From a virus, in IMG/VR virus record IMGVR_UViG_3300017771_000095, positions 1 through 25,366 of that record: a stretch of 25,366 nt of DNA. One strand, 5' to 3'. The notes under the pieces are model-generated. The model was not told where the DNA came from and ran no database searches. It saw only the letters and a program-made list of their open reading frames with translations. Position 1 is the stretch's first letter; every line of letters begins with the position of its first letter. Position numbers and translations under genes: made by a program. Below, in pieces: positions 5,152-15,803 of the stretch.

Positions 5152-6909
5152 CTAGCCAATGGCGGCTGCCATATCTCTTATAGATGAATTGTCACTTTTA
5201 GCGCTTGGTGGATCTCCCATTACTAATGCTGAACTACTTGAGCTGCTATTGTCTACGTTTTGAGTAGTACTTGAGTCTACAATATTAACGCCTTTAGATT
5301 TTTCTTGCTCAATTCTAGCTTGTTCTAAGTCTACTGCTTTTTGAGCTGCTTCCATATGTTGTTTATCTGCGAGCATAGCCCTTTTCTCACGTCTATCCAA
5401 CATAGCTCTTGCTTCTTCGGGTGTGGCTTTTCTTCTATTGCCATCTTCTACAATAAACATATTGCCTTGTTTAAAGGCTTGTTGAGAACTTCTCAACATG
5501 TCATTTTCTTGATCGGCTCTTCGTGCCGCAGATCTTTCTTTTTGTTCTGCATCTTTGATATCTTGTTCGCTGATATTACCGCTGAGATTTAATTTTCCAC
5601 CTCTAATCGTATCACCTACACCTTTACCAATAAATGGAATTGATTCAATTGCACTAGCAGCTAATTCAATAACACCATTAAGAACTAATTTAAACATATC
5701 AAAAATGGTATCAACTGTTTTGGTAATAATATCCATGAAACTAAAGCTTTTTAATGCTTCAGCTGATTCATTAAATCCGAATTTACCTAATGCCCAAGCA
5801 GCTACACTTTTTATTAGATCTAATGGTATACCGATTACTGAATTGACTAGACCTTTAATTCCACCAGCGATTGTTGATATTACTTTAGATCCTATGTTTC
5901 CTTCGTCATCAACAAATCCTTCAATAGCTCCTTTTACTGTATCGTAGACAGTCATGATTATAAAGAGAGGTGCAAAAAGTTTACCAATTGTTTTACCAAT
6001 TCCATTTAACAATTGCATAAATTTAGAATTTTCTGCAAATATTTTAAATGCATCTGTAATAACTGCAAATGCCTTTGCAATTGGCCCTTCGGCTGAGAAA
6101 AATGTTTTGATTGGTTTTACCAAATCTGACACAAAGGTTATTGCTGCATTGAATGGACGCATAATTGTATTAAAAATTCTACTTAATAAACTTGGTCCTT
6201 CACCAGCCATGAATACTTGTTTAAATGGCTTCGCAACATCATCAATAAACGTTTCAAAAGGAAACACAAAAATAGCTTTAAGAGTATTAAAAAATGATGT
6301 TAGCTTCTTTCCAATAAAACCTTCTCCAGTAAATAAGGTTTTAAATGGTTGTAATAAATCATCTACAATTGCGAGAGCACCAGTAAATGTTAATCTAAAA
6401 GAACTTTTTATACCATTAACAAATCTCATAAATCCGCCTTCGGCGCTAAAGAAAGCTTTCAATGGTTGTAATAAATCATCAAGTATTTTAAGAGCAGCTG
6501 TGAATGTTGCTTTAATTTTTCCACCTAAGTCAGTACCAAATAATCTTATTGCATCTCTAATGTCTTCTAGTCTTTTAGTAAGACCTACAAGTCGTGATAA
6601 TTTTTTAATACTGTCTAATATACCTGTTAAAAATCCTGCAGTTGCCGCAATAATTCCTGCAAGAATAGCTGCTAATTTAGAACGATCTTTTTTCGGATCT
6701 TTATCGCCACCAGGCTGAGTACTATCAGCTTGATTCTTACGTTCTCTCAACATTTCAAGTAGATCTAATTGTCCTAATTGAACTGCTTTTAAAAACTTAT
6801 CAACTCTTCTCGTTAAACGTTCAACACTTTCTGCGACAAGTTCGTGTCCTGCCATGTTTTGATCGTTATTAACTTTCAGCTGTTGAGCAATAATTTCTAA
6901 ATTAGCCAT
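5152..6909 (-). CDS. Putative tail tape measure protein (gp29-like)
   Basis: A 585-residue protein, close to the roughly 590 residues of T4 gp29, the ruler that sets tail tube length. The call rests on position directly after the gp26/gp51-type chaperone pair and on composition: an N-terminal helical part, a hydrophobic Ala/Gly segment at about 78-97, long helical hydrophobic stretches, and a charged coiled-coil-like region at about 450-540. Four imperfect repeats lie at residues 144-290, marked by DDLLQP, DDLLQP, DDVAKP and SDLVKP at 144, 183, 223 and 261, a period of 38-40 residues. The tail ends in a Ser-rich linker. AAAGG lies 7 nt before the ATG, and the start overlaps the end of the chaperone extension by 8 nt. 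Sequence identity to gp29 is not evident by eye. Confidence 0.7.
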   Translation of the reverse strand: MANLEIIAQQLKVNNDQNMAGHELVAESVERLTRRVDKFLKAVQLGQLDLLEMLRERKNQADSTQPGGDKDPKKDRSKLAAILAGIIAATAGFLTGILDSIKKLSRLVGLTKRLEDIRDAIRLFGTDLGGKIKATFTAALKILDDLLQPLKAFFSAEGGFMRFVNGIKSSFRLTFTGALAIVDDLLQPFKTLFTGEGFIGKKLTSFFNTLKAIFVFPFETFIDDVAKPFKQVFMAGEGPSLLSRIFNTIMRPFNAAITFVSDLVKPIKTFFSAEGPIAKAFAVITDAFKIFAENSKFMQLLNGIGKTIGKLFAPLFIIMTVYDTVKGAIEGFVDDEGNIGSKVISTIAGGIKGLVNSVIGIPLDLIKSVAAWALGKFGFNESAEALKSFSFMDIITKTVDTIFDMFKLVLNGVIELAASAIESIPFIGKGVGDTIRGGKLNLSGNISEQDIKDAEQKERSAARRADQENDMLRSSQQAFKQGNMFIVEDGNRRKATPEEARAMLDRREKRAMLADKQHMEAAQKAVDLEQARIEQEKSKGVNIVDSSTTQNVDNSSSSSSALVMGDPPSAKSDNSSIRDMAAAIG

Positions 6910-7081
6910 TTTTTTGCCTTTGTTTTTCGTCTTCTAAATGATTAATCAAAAGATTAATATAAATTTCTCTTTCCCATGGTAACATATTCTCTATCTCAGT
7001 TAAACTCCAATTCCAGTGGGTCATTAAATTAAAGTTCATATGGTAAAAATTCTCTAAATTTTCATGAGATAGAGCTATTAT
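6902..7081 (-). CDS. gp51: gp51-like tail assembly chaperone extension, -1 frame
   Basis: A 59-codon open stretch in the -1 frame relative to the gp26-like gene. It runs from the codon after the slippery site (ATA at 7081) to TAA at 6904-6902. It encodes a helical segment with THWNWSLTEIENMLPWEREI and a charged end, the style of the short gp51-type proteins of marine T4-like phages. An internal ATG at 7039 could give a 45-aa product, but it has no good ribosome-binding site (nearest AGAG is 12-13 nt away). Open sequence upstream of that ATG, back to the slippery heptamer, favours translation as a fusion of 293 residues with the gp26-like protein, like lambda G/GT. The end overlaps the tape measure ATG. 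Confidence 0.7.
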   Translation of the reverse strand: MIALSHENLENFYHMNFNLMTHWNWSLTEIENMLPWEREIYINLLINHLEDEKQRQKNG

Positions 7082-7101
7082 AAAAAATTCTGTAGCCCCT
7101 C
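7052..7101 (-). promoter_or_regulatory. Candidate programmed -1 ribosomal frameshift site
   Basis: The heptamer T TTT TTA occupies 7087-7081 in the correct phase, directly before the 0-frame stop TAA (7080-7078). A ribosome-binding-like GAGGGG (7101-7096) lies 8 nt upstream, and a weak hairpin CTCTA (7074-7070) / TAGAG (7056-7052) starts 6 nt downstream. These are the three usual parts of bacterial -1 frameshift signals. Confidence 0.65.
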
Positions 7102-7782
7102 GATTACTAATTTATTTTCATGGTTACAAGAGCTACAAGTAAAATCTACATCGTGATTTAAAGCTGGAATCTTATCTATAAAATCTCTAATCGCCGCAAA
7201 TTGATTACTATTCATTGATTCAATAAATTCTTTTAATTCTTCGTCAGTTGAATCTCTTAAATTGATTCTTTCTTCTTCTGTAACTACGGCTCTTAAACAA
7301 CTTGCAATTAATTTAAAAGCGTTTTCAGCGTCACCCGCGTTATCAGCTCCTACACGAACTACTTCTTCAAAACTAGGCCAATCAATTTCTACAGAAATTT
7401 CATCAGTTAGTTTAATAGTTTTTTCGATGTCAGGAATTGCAATTTTAACTTCGTCAAGCTTGATTTCAACTGGATTTGAAGTTTCGCATTTCTCACATTT
7501 TAAAGCAATACTAGCGGTTTCACCAACACTTCTTGCTCTCATTTGTAAAAAAGCGTATTCAATATCGAAAGAAGTTAATGCTTGTTCTGCAATTGGTTCT
7601 TCAATACAGTCAGCAATTGTTCGAACTAATGCTCTAAAAACATCTGAATTTTTACCGCTTTCTGACGCGATCATAATTGCCTTTTCTTCTTTTACGAGAA
7701 AAGGTCTGTAGTGCACCTTTTTACCAGATGACGGAATTGTCATCTCATAGCTAGGTAGCGTATTAAGTTTAGGTAATGCCAT
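7078..7782 (-). CDS. gp26: gp26-like baseplate hub protein / tail assembly chaperone
   Basis: A 234-residue protein of the T4 gp26 type (T4 base plate protein family; T4 gp26 is about 208 residues). The N-terminus MALPKLNTLPSYEMTIPSSG leads into KVHYRPFLVKEEKAIMIA, typical of the family. Two CxxC pairs, C96/C99 and C216/C219, probably form one zinc-binding site. In T4, genes 26 and 51 lie next to each other and their products are needed for hub assembly; their place before the tape measure gene suits a chaperone role. The C-terminus QNFL ends on the slippery heptamer, so a fraction of ribosomes may continue into the gp51-like frame. Upstream AGAGG is about 10 nt from the ATG. Confidence 0.85.
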   Translation of the reverse strand: MALPKLNTLPSYEMTIPSSGKKVHYRPFLVKEEKAIMIASESGKNSDVFRALVRTIADCIEEPIAEQALTSFDIEYAFLQMRARSVGETASIALKCEKCETSNPVEIKLDEVKIAIPDIEKTIKLTDEISVEIDWPSFEEVVRVGADNAGDAENAFKLIASCLRAVVTEEERINLRDSTDEELKEFIESMNSNQFAAIRDFIDKIPALNHDVDFTCSSCNHENKLVIEGLQNFL

Positions 7783-7788
7783 AATAAT

Positions 7789-8451
7789 TTAACCTCTGTA
7801 AAATTGTTGCGAGGATTGTACTTTTTTCCAGTTTGTATAGGATAACTGTACGCTCAATTCCATTATTTGAGTTTCCTCATTATTAAATTCTACTGCAGAT
7901 AGAGTCGTAGGAAATGCATCGATCAACTCCACACAGTAGGCAGATTCATAGTAAGTTTCAGGATCTGGTAAAAAACTTAAAATCTTACTTGTAATTCCGC
8001 TCAGTTTTGTTCCGCCAACTAAACCCGCAGCGGTAGGTAATAAATTTAAAATTCTAGGATCCATCTTATTTGGATCGTCTTGTACTATTTTTAATTGATG
8101 AATTTTAACAGGATGCTGGTAATCTGATTTATATCTTACTGTACCTCCTTCTTCATCTAATATAGTCTCTCTCCAATTGTCAAAATATTCTTTTACTCCA
8201 TAATCGTTTAAAAGAAGAAATGAAAGAGTAACGTCATCAACAGCAAAACCATATGCGACTTTTTCAAACTTCATTCCGATTCGTCTTTCATGAGTTAGAA
8301 TTTGTTTTCCAGGTAAAGATGTACTTCTGCATAACAGATTTAAATCTTCTAAACCTATTCCTCCAATGTCCGGCAATTCAACAAAAAATTTATTTTGATG
8401 AGCAATACCTTGTTTTTGAGATATAATACTTTTTAATTTATCAACTCTCAC
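7789..8451 (-). CDS. Tail-tube-fold protein, probably gp54-like tube initiator
   Basis: A 220-residue protein with a GTG start at 8451 (stop of the upstream gene and this GTG overlap as GTGA). The pattern HQNKFFVELPDI near residues 18-29, then LLCRSTSLPGKQI and a late EYFDNWRETIL, matches the tube-protein fold shared by T4 gp19, gp48 and gp54. In those proteins an N-terminal beta strand is followed by the SxxLPG loop. The length is nearer gp19 than gp54 (320), so it could be a tube-like baseplate component or a tube paralogue. Given its place beside the hub chaperones I favour a gp54-like role in starting the tube. Confidence 0.65.
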   Translation of the reverse strand: MRVDKLKSIISQKQGIAHQNKFFVELPDIGGIGLEDLNLLCRSTSLPGKQILTHERRIGMKFEKVAYGFAVDDVTLSFLLLNDYGVKEYFDNWRETILDEEGGTVRYKSDYQHPVKIHQLKIVQDDPNKMDPRILNLLPTAAGLVGGTKLSGITSKILSFLPDPETYYESAYCVELIDAFPTTLSAVEFNNEETQIMELSVQLSYTNWKKVQSSQQFYRG

Positions 8452-11312: not shown

Positions 11313-12634
11313 TGTTAAAAGGTGCACCAGAACAACAGTCAGATTATCTCTTTGAGTCGATTCTTTTAGAATCTGATAGGTTGAATAAGCCTATAGAAGT
11401 AAAGAATCAAGTCAGTGATTTAGAGATTTTTGAAAGTATTGAAAAACCTTATCTTACTGGCACTGTGGTCATTCTAGACGACGCTGATATTATGCAAAGA
11501 GTTGATATTCTAGGTGGAGAAAAGATTACTGTAAAATTAAAAAGCTCTAGATCTGGTTCAGTAACAATTATTAAAATATTTTATATCGATAAAATTATTT
11601 CTAAAAAAAGAGTTAATGACAATTCTCAATTATTAATTGTTAATATTATAGAAGATATCGGATATACGGCATGTTTGATAAACATTAACAAATCTTATAA
11701 AGGTAAATGTTCTGAAATTATTAAAAAAGTATCGCAAAACTTTTTAAATAAAACAGTCGATGTATCAAATACTGATAAACAATTTTTTAAAATGATTGTT
11801 CCAAATTTAGATCCGTTAGAAACAATTCAATGGGTATCAAACAGAGCGTCAACAAAAGAAGGATATCCTTTTTATATGTTTTCTGTTCTAGTAGAAGATA
11901 AATTAAAATTTACAGACTTAGGAACAATGATTGAAAACGAAGTAATTAATTCTGATATTTCTTATAAAAGATCAAGTTTAGTTGTAAAAGCTACCAACCG
12001 AGACGTTAGACGAAGAACGATTAAAAATTACAAGTTTCATAATTCAGAAGATTTGTTGACACTAATATACGCTGGTCTTATCGGATCTCAATATCAATAT
12101 ATCGATACAACAAAAAATAAAAAGAACGAATTCTCATTTGACATTGTAAGAGATTTATTGAAACCAATTTCGGCAAAAGGAGTTTTAAAGAGATCTCAGA
12201 GTCAATATATGTTTTCAGAAGATTATAAACATAACGGAATTTCTTTTAATAAGTATAAATCACGACTTATCTCACAGATTGGTGGATCAGGCGCTTATAC
12301 AGGACCAGATGAGATATTAAGTTTTGGTGAGAGTAATATTACTTCTGATTATAAACTAAATATTATTTGTAGAGCGATGGATGGAATATTAAAGAAGGCA
12401 CCTTTAACAATTGTAGTACCAGGCGTTGATTTTATCGACGGTGATAAACATTCTACAATTGGTAATAATTTACGAATTGAATTTCCTTCTTCAACTCCTG
12501 AATCAATGGAAAACAAGGGTATAGATACTAAAGCATCAGGAGATTATTTAGTTTTTGCTGCCCGGCATATGTTTAAAAGAGAGACATATGATATATCACT
12601 TCAATGTGTAAAGATGGCGAATTATGATACCTAA
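11312..12634 (+). CDS. Baseplate hub protein, gp27-like
   Basis: A 440-residue protein (T4 gp27 is 391). The N-terminal region with DLEIFESIEKPYLTGTVVI (about 36-54) and VDILGGEKITVKL is the first beta-barrel of hub proteins of the gp27/gpD class. The middle has an alpha-helical insertion, and the C-terminal half a second barrel. The next gene encodes the gp5 spike, the direct partner of gp27 in the hub trimer. It overlaps gp53 by one base and gp5 by 11 nt. In T4 gene 27 lies beside genes 26 and 51, so the order differs here. The assignment is by architecture and context, not close identity. Confidence 0.75.
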   Translation: MLKGAPEQQSDYLFESILLESDRLNKPIEVKNQVSDLEIFESIEKPYLTGTVVILDDADIMQRVDILGGEKITVKLKSSRSGSVTIIKIFYIDKIISKKRVNDNSQLLIVNIIEDIGYTACLININKSYKGKCSEIIKKVSQNFLNKTVDVSNTDKQFFKMIVPNLDPLETIQWVSNRASTKEGYPFYMFSVLVEDKLKFTDLGTMIENEVINSDISYKRSSLVVKATNRDVRRRTIKNYKFHNSEDLLTLIYAGLIGSQYQYIDTTKNKKNEFSFDIVRDLLKPISAKGVLKRSQSQYMFSEDYKHNGISFNKYKSRLISQIGGSGAYTGPDEILSFGESNITSDYKLNIICRAMDGILKKAPLTIVVPGVDFIDGDKHSTIGNNLRIEFPSSTPESMENKGIDTKASGDYLVFAARHMFKRETYDISLQCVKMANYDT

Positions 12635-13376
12635 AAAATATATAGATTATTATGGAGATAGAACACGATGGTTTTTAGGAACTGTCGTTGATATTATTGA
12701 TCCAGAAGAACTCGGAAGAATACGAGTGAGAATCTATGGAATTCATTCTGAAAATAAAACAGATATTCCAGATGCAGATCTGCCATGGGCTCAAGTAGTA
12801 TTACCAATTACACAAGGTGGAACAAATGGACTTGGTAATAATTTAGGAATTCAAATTGATTCGTTAGTTTTTGGAATCTTTTTAGATGGAGCAAATTCAC
12901 AACTTCCACTTGTTGTAGGTTCTTTACCTAAACTTGAAGAAAATTCTCAAGGTGGTAGATCTACAAATCAACTTGCAAGAGGAACAAATACGCTTACTAA
13001 AAATGTAAACGTATCTGGTGCGCCGTCAGATCCGTACGCTGCTGTATATCCTCATAACAAAGTAATACAGACTACCAGCGGACACACGATTGAAATTGAC
13101 GATACTCCAAGTGGTGAAAGAATACATATACATCATAAGTCCGGTGCTTTTATGGAATTTCATCCAGATGGAAGTTTAGTTATAAAAACAACAAATACAT
13201 ATATCGATGCGGGTACAAATGCCAATATTAAAGCATCTAGTGTTAATGTTGAAGGTAGCACAGTAAATATTAATGGAGGTAGTGGAGATGTTGTTGTGAG
13301 TGGAATATCTTTGGTTAATCATACTCATCGTGATAATCCTGGCCTTGCTGGTGCAGTTACTTCAAAACCACTATAA
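12624..13376 (+). CDS. gp5: Baseplate central spike gp5, without lysozyme domain
   Basis: A 250-residue protein with the gp5 OB-fold (DRTRWFLGTVVDIIDPEELG, about residues 11-30, DLPWAQVVLP at 51-60 and FGIFLDG at 84-90) and a C-terminal beta-helix needle of short repeats (GHTIEID, HIHHKSG, IKTTNTYIDAG, INGGSGD; about 145-225). The end NHTHRDNPG may cap the spike with metal-binding histidines. T4 gp5 (575 residues) has a lysozyme domain between these parts, and here the linker is only about 40 residues with no room for it. Penetration must rely on the needle or on another enzyme. Confidence 0.9.
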   Translation: MIPKKYIDYYGDRTRWFLGTVVDIIDPEELGRIRVRIYGIHSENKTDIPDADLPWAQVVLPITQGGTNGLGNNLGIQIDSLVFGIFLDGANSQLPLVVGSLPKLEENSQGGRSTNQLARGTNTLTKNVNVSGAPSDPYAAVYPHNKVIQTTSGHTIEIDDTPSGERIHIHHKSGAFMEFHPDGSLVIKTTNTYIDAGTNANIKASSVNVEGSTVNINGGSGDVVVSGISLVNHTHRDNPGLAGAVTSKPL

Positions 13377-13386
13377 GGAATAGAAT

Positions 13387-14583
13387 ATGGCTGACTTGCA
13401 GATTAGAGGTAACAAAGTTGCACTTCTAGACAGTAACGATAATATTATTTACACACTTCCAGATTCGGCTGGCTCTATTGGAGAAGCTGTAGTAACTGAT
13501 GGGGCTGGTAAATTATTTTATGGTGGTATTGACATAGAATCTGTACTAGCGGCAGGAGATTCTTCGAATAGAAATATAACTGTTAATGTTCTCAATAGCG
13601 ATATCGCTATGGCTGAAACTATTAATATTGCTAATCCAAGTCCTTCTCCGTCGATACCTCCTCTTCCAGGTCATGGCTACGTTTCTGGTGGCCGGCAACC
13701 AAATATTAGTAATGTAATTGATAAATTTAGTTTTGCAGTTGGATATGATAACATCTCATATGATGTTGGCGATTTAACTGTGGGTAGAAGCCAAGTTTCT
13801 GGTAAATCTTCATCTACTCATGGATATACAACTGGTGGTGTTTTTGCACCTAATACTGCTGTGGCGAATGAAATTGATAAGCATCCTTTTAGTACAGATG
13901 CAAACGCCACTGATGTTGGAGACTTAACACAGTCTTGTTCTCACACTGCAGGCCAATCTTCGTCTACTCATGGATATACATCCGGAGGCGCTTTAGTAAG
14001 CCCACTAAGTGGCAACCCGCCCACTGGCAGAACTAATTCTATCGATAAATTTCCATTTAGTACAGATGCAAGCGCAGCCGATGTAGGAGATTTATCACAA
14101 GCTCGTAGAAGTGCTAGTGGAACAAATTCTAGCACTCATGGATATAGTTCAGGCGGTGACCCAAATGCAGGAAGCACTATCGATAAGTTTCCTTTTACTT
14201 CTGATGCCAATGCAACTGATGTAGGAGATCTCGCAGTAGAGATGGCTGAAGCGTCAGGACAATCGTCGACGACTCATGGGTACGCAACCGGAGGAAGAGT
14301 AAATGATGGTGTTTCTCCTCCACCAGTATACCGAGCTGATATACAAAAGTTTCCTTTTGCATCAGATACGAATGCCACAAACGTAGGATCTTTACAACCA
14401 TTTTCGCGCAGAGTTGCTACCGCTGGAATGTCGGCAGATACACATGGATATGCCGCTGGTGGAAATGAGGGTCTGGTAAAAGGTGACGTTTACAAATTTC
14501 CTTTTGCTTCAGATGGTGGTTCAACTGATACTTCTATGAATTTAAGTCAAGCAAGAAGCGGCGCAGCAGGAACTCAAGGATAA
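13387..14583 (+). CDS. Six-repeat propeller-like tail protein A
   Basis: A 398-residue protein. Residues 1 to about 70 form a conserved attachment module (MADLQIRGNKVALLDSND, then TLPDSAG and GGIDIESVLA). From residue 96 six repeats of about 50 residues follow, each with HGYxSGG, a variable loop, (I)DKFPF, SDANATDVGDL and a small-residue AxGQSS end. Six blades with kelch-like glycine doublets suggest a beta-propeller, a common sugar-binding fold. The loops between HGYxSGG and DKFPF vary most and are rich in Pro, Ser and Asn. AAGGA precedes the ATG. It is the first of three tandem paralogues between gp5 and gp25; a receptor-binding role is inferred. Confidence 0.8.
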   Translation: MADLQIRGNKVALLDSNDNIIYTLPDSAGSIGEAVVTDGAGKLFYGGIDIESVLAAGDSSNRNITVNVLNSDIAMAETINIANPSPSPSIPPLPGHGYVSGGRQPNISNVIDKFSFAVGYDNISYDVGDLTVGRSQVSGKSSSTHGYTTGGVFAPNTAVANEIDKHPFSTDANATDVGDLTQSCSHTAGQSSSTHGYTSGGALVSPLSGNPPTGRTNSIDKFPFSTDASAADVGDLSQARRSASGTNSSTHGYSSGGDPNAGSTIDKFPFTSDANATDVGDLAVEMAEASGQSSTTHGYATGGRVNDGVSPPPVYRADIQKFPFASDTNATNVGSLQPFSRRVATAGMSADTHGYAAGGNEGLVKGDVYKFPFASDGGSTDTSMNLSQARSGAAGTQG

Positions 14584-14585
14584 TT

Positions 14586-15803
14586 ATGGTAGACTTTCAA
14601 ATAAAACAAAATAAAATTGCATTTGTCGACAGTGGTGATAATACAATTTATACATTACCTGATTCTGCCGGCACTGCAGGAAATGCGCTTGTAACAGACG
14701 GATCAGGCAAATTATTTTTTGGTGGAATAGATATTGATTCTGTATTGGCTGTAGGAGATTCTTCGAATAGAGATATGACAGTTGGCGTTATTAATGCTAA
14801 AACTATTGAAGCGAACACAGTCGTAGAAGGTAGTGCACTATTTAGTTTTCAAGGCCTATTTTCAGGATATACCGCTGGTGGTGTTGCTCCTCCTAATCCT
14901 ACTTCATTTAGTAATCCACAAGGAATTAATGGGCATCGTACTATAGACAAGTTTCCTTTTGCCTCTGATGCCAATGCTACCGATGCAGGGAACTTAATTG
15001 CCGGCACATCTGGATCATCAGGGCAATCTTCTATCTCTCATGGTTATACATCAGGCGGAAGCGTTCCTGTATATTCAGAAGGTGTGATATACAAATTTCC
15101 TTTTAGTAATAATGCAGGATCTAGTTCTGTAGGAATACTTGCCGGACTACATCCGCTCGAAACAAATACTGGAAAAAGGAGAGGGATGGGTCATTCGTCA
15201 GCTGATACTGGATATCATTCCGGTGGTAGCTATGGGCCAGGCATAACTGGTAGAATTGTTAAGTTTCCTTTTGCTCATGACACAAATTCTGGAATAGGAG
15301 GAAATTTAACAAGTTTTGGTAGAGAAAGAGGTGCTGGGCTTTCATCTGCGACTGACGGTTATGCAGCAGGAGGACTAAGTCCTCCTGGTCCTTCTAGAAC
15401 GACAAAGATCGATAAATTTCCGTTTAGTACTGATGCTAATGCGACAACGATTGGTAACCTAACCGTGGCTAAAACAGATGTAACCGGTCAATCATCAACT
15501 ACACATGGATATGTGTCTGGTGGAAATGAAGCACCTCCATTTAATGATACTATAACAACAATTGAAAAATTCCCGTTTGCTTCAGATGCAGACGCTACAG
15601 ATATAGCAAACCTAAGTGCATCTCGAGCATTTAGTGCTGGTCAAAGTTCTATATCTCATGGATATACATCTGGTGGACATTCCGAATCCTTAACTTCTTA
15701 CACAAATATTATCGATAAGTTTCCTTTTAGCAGTGATGCTAATGCAACCGACGTAGGAGATATAAGTAAACATAGATCAGAATCAACAGGACACCAATCA
15801 TAA
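14586..15803 (+). CDS. Six-repeat propeller-like tail protein B
   Basis: A 405-residue paralogue of the genes before and after it. The N-terminal module (MVDFQIKQNKIAFVDSGD, GGIDIDSVLA) is conserved, and six repeats follow from residue 93. Some repeats have diverged, e.g. DTGYHSGG and TDGYAAGG in place of HGYxSGG, while KFPF is kept in all six. The gene begins 2 nt after its neighbour, with AAGGA upstream. Loops are longer here, such as the stretch after GVAPPNPT. A virion adhesin or fibre head is the likely role. Confidence 0.8.
   Translation: MVDFQIKQNKIAFVDSGDNTIYTLPDSAGTAGNALVTDGSGKLFFGGIDIDSVLAVGDSSNRDMTVGVINAKTIEANTVVEGSALFSFQGLFSGYTAGGVAPPNPTSFSNPQGINGHRTIDKFPFASDANATDAGNLIAGTSGSSGQSSISHGYTSGGSVPVYSEGVIYKFPFSNNAGSSSVGILAGLHPLETNTGKRRGMGHSSADTGYHSGGSYGPGITGRIVKFPFAHDTNSGIGGNLTSFGRERGAGLSSATDGYAAGGLSPPGPSRTTKIDKFPFSTDANATTIGNLTVAKTDVTGQSSTTHGYVSGGNEAPPFNDTITTIEKFPFASDADATDIANLSASRAFSAGQSSISHGYTSGGHSESLTSYTNIIDKFPFSSDANATDVGDISKHRSESTGHQS

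Follow-up and report, generated by a model that had tools for sequence, protein, structure and literature searches.

A probable programmed -1 frameshift joins gp26-like and gp51-like tail assembly chaperones in a T4-superfamily myovirus

The stretch of viral DNA studied here, 25,366 nucleotides (nt) in length (IMG/VR virus record IMGVR_UViG_3300017771_000095, positions 1 to 25,366; hereafter the window), carries a gp26-like gene that overlaps a gp51-like reading frame. We are highly confident that a programmed -1 frameshift at this gp26/gp51 junction yields a short and a long tail assembly chaperone (TAC) of a marine T4-superfamily myovirus. The reading rests on the slippery site, the open -1 frame, their conservation, a coding signature and synteny, all of them taken from sequence. 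The initial annotation, which was made from the letters of the window, had proposed a frameshift of the lambda G/GT kind, and the proposal held up on the conserved heptamer, the -1 coding without start codons, the flanking stimulators and the gene order.

The coding sequence (CDS) of the gp26-like gene, which lies on the minus strand, ended in CAG AAT TTT TTA TAA, and an in-phase heptamer, T TTT TTA, occupied 7087..7081, exactly as first read. Its protein was a full-domain match to PF12322 covering profile positions 2-218 of 219 (Table 1). The -1 frame was open for 59 codons from ATA at 7081 to TAA at 6904..6902, and the gp26-like protein (G) plus this extension amounts to a long form of 293 amino acids (aa). 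The first ATG of the -1 frame, at 7039, came after 14 codons and was not preceded by GTG or TTG. The -1 product matched phrog_634 (gp51, baseplate hub assembly catalyst) over nearly its entire length (residues 2-58 of 59), and the C-terminal part of phrog_150, the profile of the gp26 family, itself matched the -1 product of the window. Because the phrog_634 match starts upstream of the ATG at 7039, by 13 residues, the 45-aa gp51 that starts there is probably a truncated reading of the extension; the ATG stands where the initial annotation had put it, while the family extends beyond the protein it would open. The other local elements which had been described could also be found again: GAGGGG at 7101..7096, 8 nt upstream of the heptamer, a weak hairpin 6 nt downstream, and an extension that ends inside the start of the tape measure gene, its stop overlapping the ATG at 6909 by 8 nt. 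The order of genes was tail tube - G - T - tape measure, with two overlapping open reading frames (ORFs) between the tail tube and tape measure genes. The window contained a single gp26 gene followed by the -1 extension; a separate long-form gene of the T4 type was not present in this 25-kb fragment.

Conservation was assessed in 95 gp26 loci, drawn from contigs of IMG/VR and from named phages, among them P-SSM2, P-SSM7, C48C1, phiN3, P10VF, Vibrio D527 and Atu_ph07. A threshold of 70% protein identity grouped them into 59 clusters and one of 50% into 40; one frame-broken locus (L145) was left out of the count. An in-phase T TTT TTN was present in 95/95 loci and 59/59 clusters. The conservation across relatives that the initial annotation had recommended to check held in every locus, both for the heptamer and for the -1 reading. 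The last base of the heptamer was C in 54 loci, T in 28, A in 12 and G in one, and its final codon was the last to third-last codon of the gp26 gene. The codon before TTT varied, while always ending in T (AGT 32, GAT 30, TCT 16, AAT 12, GCT 4, CAT 1); the background of T-ending usage for the same residues elsewhere in these genes was 63%. The P-site codon was TTT in 95/95 loci compared with 71% TTT for phenylalanine elsewhere in these genes. Outside the site the genes contain 225 F[FL] dipeptides, of which no more than 13 stood in a T TTT TTN context. The conservation of the heptamer is far beyond chance. Because the raw product of codon rates ignores shared ancestry, we relied on the cluster counts in place of a p-value. 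T TTT TTN was further seen in 16 additional IMG/VR loci and in PhiW-14, pf16, P-TIM40, avDM12, VmeM-32, Aeh1, CC2, Cronobacter S13, a KVP40-type phage and Mendera. Nearly every relative sampled keeps the slip site. In Atu_ph07 (L101, 2636-2875) an in-phase T TTT TTC was followed by an open -1 frame, but the extension was not gp51-like.

The -1 frame was open across the whole extension (56-76 codons) in 95/95 loci. No -1 stop was found within the extension in any of the 95 homologues, including the interval between heptamer and ATG, where a stop had been named beforehand as evidence against the frameshift. In 31 loci, i.e. the window and 30 others, the -1 ORF had no ATG, GTG or TTG before codon 14 after the slip. 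Codon differences were analysed in a test set of 29 distinct sequences without ATG, GTG or TTG in the 14 codons after the slip. Single-nucleotide codon differences were 69% synonymous in the -1 frame compared to 20% and 14% in the other frames, which argues that the motif LSHDxLxNYYxTNF is maintained as protein where ordinary initiation cannot reach. Rarer starts (ATT, ATC, ATA, CTG) occurred early in some of the 29 sequences, and 7 of them were without even those.

These data bear on the possibility that a short gp51 is translated on its own, through termination-reinitiation or internal initiation right behind the gp26 gene, and that the T-run is incidental. Some relatives do have an ATG overlapping or near the gp26 stop (TGATG in P10VF, TAATG in D527, an ATG three codons on in P-SSM2), and gp51 is annotated as a separate protein in public records. 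Yet 31 loci, the window among them, lack an ATG, GTG or TTG upstream of codon 14, and the amino acids encoded in that segment are nonetheless conserved and subject to purifying selection. Moreover, reinitiation leaves the absolute conservation of T TTT TTN unexplained, and a separate gp51 is at odds with the T4-type gp51, in which a gp26 domain is fused in frame. We regard such an origin of gp51 as very improbable. As to the public records, the two frames were joined in none of the annotated frameshift-type entries examined. Some lacked a gp51 annotation; in the others gp51 was a CDS of its own that began beyond the slip site, with a length of 96 nt in P-SSM7. Many public phage records therefore probably present gp51 wrongly, as a small and truncated protein.

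In many relatives the heptamer was flanked by a Shine-Dalgarno-like signal and by covarying hairpins, both candidate stimulators. About 7-10 nt upstream, pairing with the anti-Shine-Dalgarno sequence was stronger than in synonymous resampling (59 cluster representatives, Mann-Whitney p 7e-7). Downstream, the 60 nt beginning 6 nt after the heptamer folded better than dinucleotide shuffles with a mean z of -1.98 (n=59), while control offsets of 50 and 100 gave mean z-values of 0.12 and -0.33. Two alternative downstream hairpins showed compensatory changes among relatives. The P-SSM2-type group had a stem of 11 base pairs after a 5-nt spacer with 16 double-change cells vs 6.2 expected (0/500 shuffles). 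Other relatives had a stem at 20-27/38-45 with 21 double-change cells vs 13.6 expected (3/500 shuffles); the sequences for this second stem were picked partly for their ability to form it, so that the test leans towards structure. The covariation shuffles are inflated by relatedness; sliding the partner by 1-3 columns lowered the covariation score in every case.

The two frames might also be joined by transcriptional slippage on the T-run instead of ribosomal frameshifting. Runs of 7-8 T were present at 28 of the 95 sites, as such a process would favour, but the other 67 including the window have exactly 6 T ended by A, C or G, which is short for efficient polymerase slippage. In addition, the position in codon phase, the upstream Shine-Dalgarno-like signal and the covarying hairpins are hallmarks of a ribosomal event. 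We consider transcriptional slippage to be slightly less probable even than a separately initiated gp51. A sequencing error or a decayed gene as the cause of the frame break has a negligible probability: homopolymer errors do arise in such records, as seen with the 5 T of IME-SM1 vs 6 T in its close relative Mendera, but the same architecture was found in 95 independent loci and in more than 10 named phages from different sequencing groups, and the comparative data refute this explanation. At the IME-SM1 site itself (L149, 319-336; Mendera is L159), 14 other Menderavirus records were all one base longer. A sequencing error in the homopolymer is the probable cause of the 5-T run, and it would scramble the gp26 end as annotated.

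Ribosomal frameshifting would work as follows. Most ribosomes on the gp26 gene would stop at UAA and release the short chaperone (G or TAC-N, 234 aa). A minority would slip back by one base at U UUU UUA, continue in the -1 frame and produce gp26-gp51 (GT or TAC-NC, 293 aa). Both forms would act on the tape measure protein, the product of the next gene. If lambda is a guide, the part shared by the two forms would bind this protein, and the T domain would recruit tail tube subunits (PMC5009743). That ribosomes slip here, how often they do so and what each form binds are inferred from the features of the locus.

The fold was compared with known structures. In Foldseek searches against the PDB, the HK97 tail assembly chaperone 2ob9 had by far the highest probability of the matches (0.85, 0.77) with TM-scores by target of 0.40-0.51. 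Sequence searches of the PDB with gp26 and T4 gp51 gave no match, and Foldseek with a model of T4-type gp51 gave no meaningful match in the PDB. On the other side of the balance, several observations weigh against frameshifting as the source of the long chaperone. The match to HK97 2ob9 was non-significant by E-value (0.48-0.85). The window's own hairpin is weak and competes with other structures in a longer fold (111-nt fold, z -0.52). Finally, in 62 of the 95 loci an ATG, GTG or TTG occurs among the 10 codons that follow the slip; therefore separate synthesis of gp51 by reinitiation is possible at those loci.

In T4, genes 26 and 51 are two divergently transcribed genes and not a single frameshifted gene. 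Residues 1-201 of T4 gp51 matched PF12322 with an E-value of 3.9e-52, i.e. they are the same domain as gp26, and its last 48 residues were homologous to the marine -1 products. A comparison of these products with 13 gp51 proteins of Straboviridae yielded hmmsearch E-values of 1e-8 to 7e-3 (Z 10,000) and an hhalign probability of 96.6% with an E-value of 4.9e-10. The same comparison with gp26 of Straboviridae gave no match to the C-terminus of the -1 product. Because gp51 carries a C-terminus of the -1 type and gp26 has none, T4 gp51 corresponds, as judged by homology, to the long form encoded in a single frame, and gp26 to the short form. At the ends of T4-type genes 26 there was no heptamer, and the -1 frame did not continue into gp51-like sequence. 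AlphaFold2 models of gp26 and gp51 showed the same order of secondary structure, with extra helices at the C-terminus of gp51.

Other Straboviridae have kept the T TTT TTN frameshift architecture, namely Aeh1, CC2, VmeM-32, avDM12, Cronobacter S13 and the KVP40-type VH1_2019. In an unrooted tree the T4-type gp26 and gp51 domains clustered together (support 100/97), apart from all frameshifting forms. Since many families use the frameshift architecture and only part of one has the duplication, the two-gene state of T4 is most likely a later duplication, derived within Straboviridae. In Klebsiella phage RCIP0006 (L102, 1141-2435) gp51-like and gp26-like paralogues stand in tandem on one strand, unlike the divergent pair of T4; this arrangement may preserve the original layout of the duplication. 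The gp26 homologue of Campylobacter phage CC_R7 (L098, 1995-2672) had neither a heptamer nor a gp51-like -1 ORF.

Ackermannviridae and their relatives (L096, L114-L128, L148, L151, L154, L094, L099) kept a gp51-like -1 ORF at the gp26 stop. An X XXY YYZ heptamer was not found at the gp26 stop in this clade, where the site reads [AC]TT TT[TC] NNN TAA. The codon overlapping the stop was ATT in Kuttervirus-type phages and ATG in the others. A one-codon slip on U UUY or reinitiation at AUU is a possible mechanism. As for the history of the system as a whole, we can only tentatively suggest that the frameshift with its Shine-Dalgarno-like and hairpin stimulators was ancestral and near-universal in the wider T4 superfamily, that T4 genes 26 and 51 go back to a single later duplication, and that the Ackermannviridae-like clade moved to its degenerate site, possibly with one of these two mechanisms; this scenario is somewhat less likely to be right than wrong.

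The coordinates of the locus are listed in Table 1.

Table 1. Features of the gp26/gp51 locus and the adjoining genes (positions refer to the window; E, E-value; pLDDT, predicted local distance difference test)
Feature	Position	Strand	Evidence
gp26-like gene, putative short tail assembly chaperone (G, TAC-N), 234 aa	7078..7782	-	PF12322 T4_baseplate E 6.5e-61; phrog_150 E 1.9e-64; AlphaFold2 model pLDDT 88.9
Slippery heptamer T TTT TTA, in phase	7081..7087	-	direct reading; T TTT TTN in 95/95 homologues
GAGGGG, internal Shine-Dalgarno-like candidate stimulator, 8 nt upstream of heptamer	7096..7101	-	direct reading
-1 frame extension, gp51-like T domain, 59 codons + stop	6902..7081	-	phrog_634 E 5.9e-25, residues 2-58
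Weak local hairpin CUCUA...UAGAG, 6-nt spacer after heptamer	7052..7074	-	-3.6 kcal/mol
45-aa ATG ORF, gp51 call expected from automated annotation	6902..7039	-	ORF list
Putative tape measure protein, 585 aa	5152..6909	-	phrog_58 tail length tape measure E 2.5e-16
Tail tube protein gene, just upstream of gp26	7789..8451	-	phrog_45 E 3.6e-27

Elsewhere in the window, an open frame of 254 codons (5954-6718, plus strand) runs antisense to the tape measure gene and is likely a by-product of composition. A gp5-like hub protein (12624-13376, plus strand) has only 250 aa and matched an 868-position hub/lysozyme family in two separate stretches; its lysozyme domain may be missing. The adjacent genes at 13387-15803 (plus strand) encode proteins of 398 and 405 aa, both of which matched phrog_19111, a family of unknown function. 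They are probably tandem paralogues within the block of baseplate genes.

The initial annotation was aware of no described case for T4-type gp26/gp51, which was probably wrong. Vladimirov, Gautam and Davidson (2022, Virology 566:9-15) reportedly dealt with tail assembly chaperones of T4-like phages; our literature searches on frameshifting with gp26 or gp51 returned no direct description, and this paper surfaced only through papers citing it. According to one citing paper, some T4-like phages do without frameshifting and have a short copy alongside a fused long one (PMC10885494); according to another, the short-form genes of T4-like phages are known to contain poly-T -1 signals (PMC12846349). 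The tail chaperones of Vandenendeviridae and Andersonviridae (PMC12846349) resemble the present locus in that the short-form gene ends with a poly-T signal and the -1 frame is always open. They differ in the motif, GTTTTT, and belong to other phage families; the likeness noted is one of layout. Going by the citing papers, the core idea of a chaperone frameshift in T4-like phages appears to be already published. Possible additions to it are the wide range of loci surveyed, the sign of coding ahead of any start codon, the covariation in the hairpins, the finding that the duplication falls within Straboviridae, and the non-canonical sites of the Ackermannviridae-like clade.

In phage lambda the genes stand in the order V-G-T-H, i.e. 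tail tube - G - T - tape measure, and the heptamer is G GGA AAG. The window shares with lambda this order of genes, a slippery site at the end of G and a T without a start of its own. It differs in the heptamer, U UUU UUA, and in a larger gp26 with CxxC pairs, which are present in the window and in many relatives. The likeness to lambda is one of layout. The programmed -1 frameshift of lambda G/GT (Levin 1993; Xu 2004) has been reviewed together with its conservation among tail chaperones, and the 2016 review names T4 as the exception (PMC5009743). T4 gp26 and gp51 are listed as chaperones of hub assembly, and gp51 is required yet absent from the particle (PMC3004832). The window and T4 share the same families, with gp26 being PF12322 and gp51 a PF12322 domain plus a T-like C-terminus, but T4 uses two divergent genes in place of one frameshifted gene. 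Taken together, the data show that the frameshift architecture is present in most of T4's wider family and how T4 came to look exceptional.
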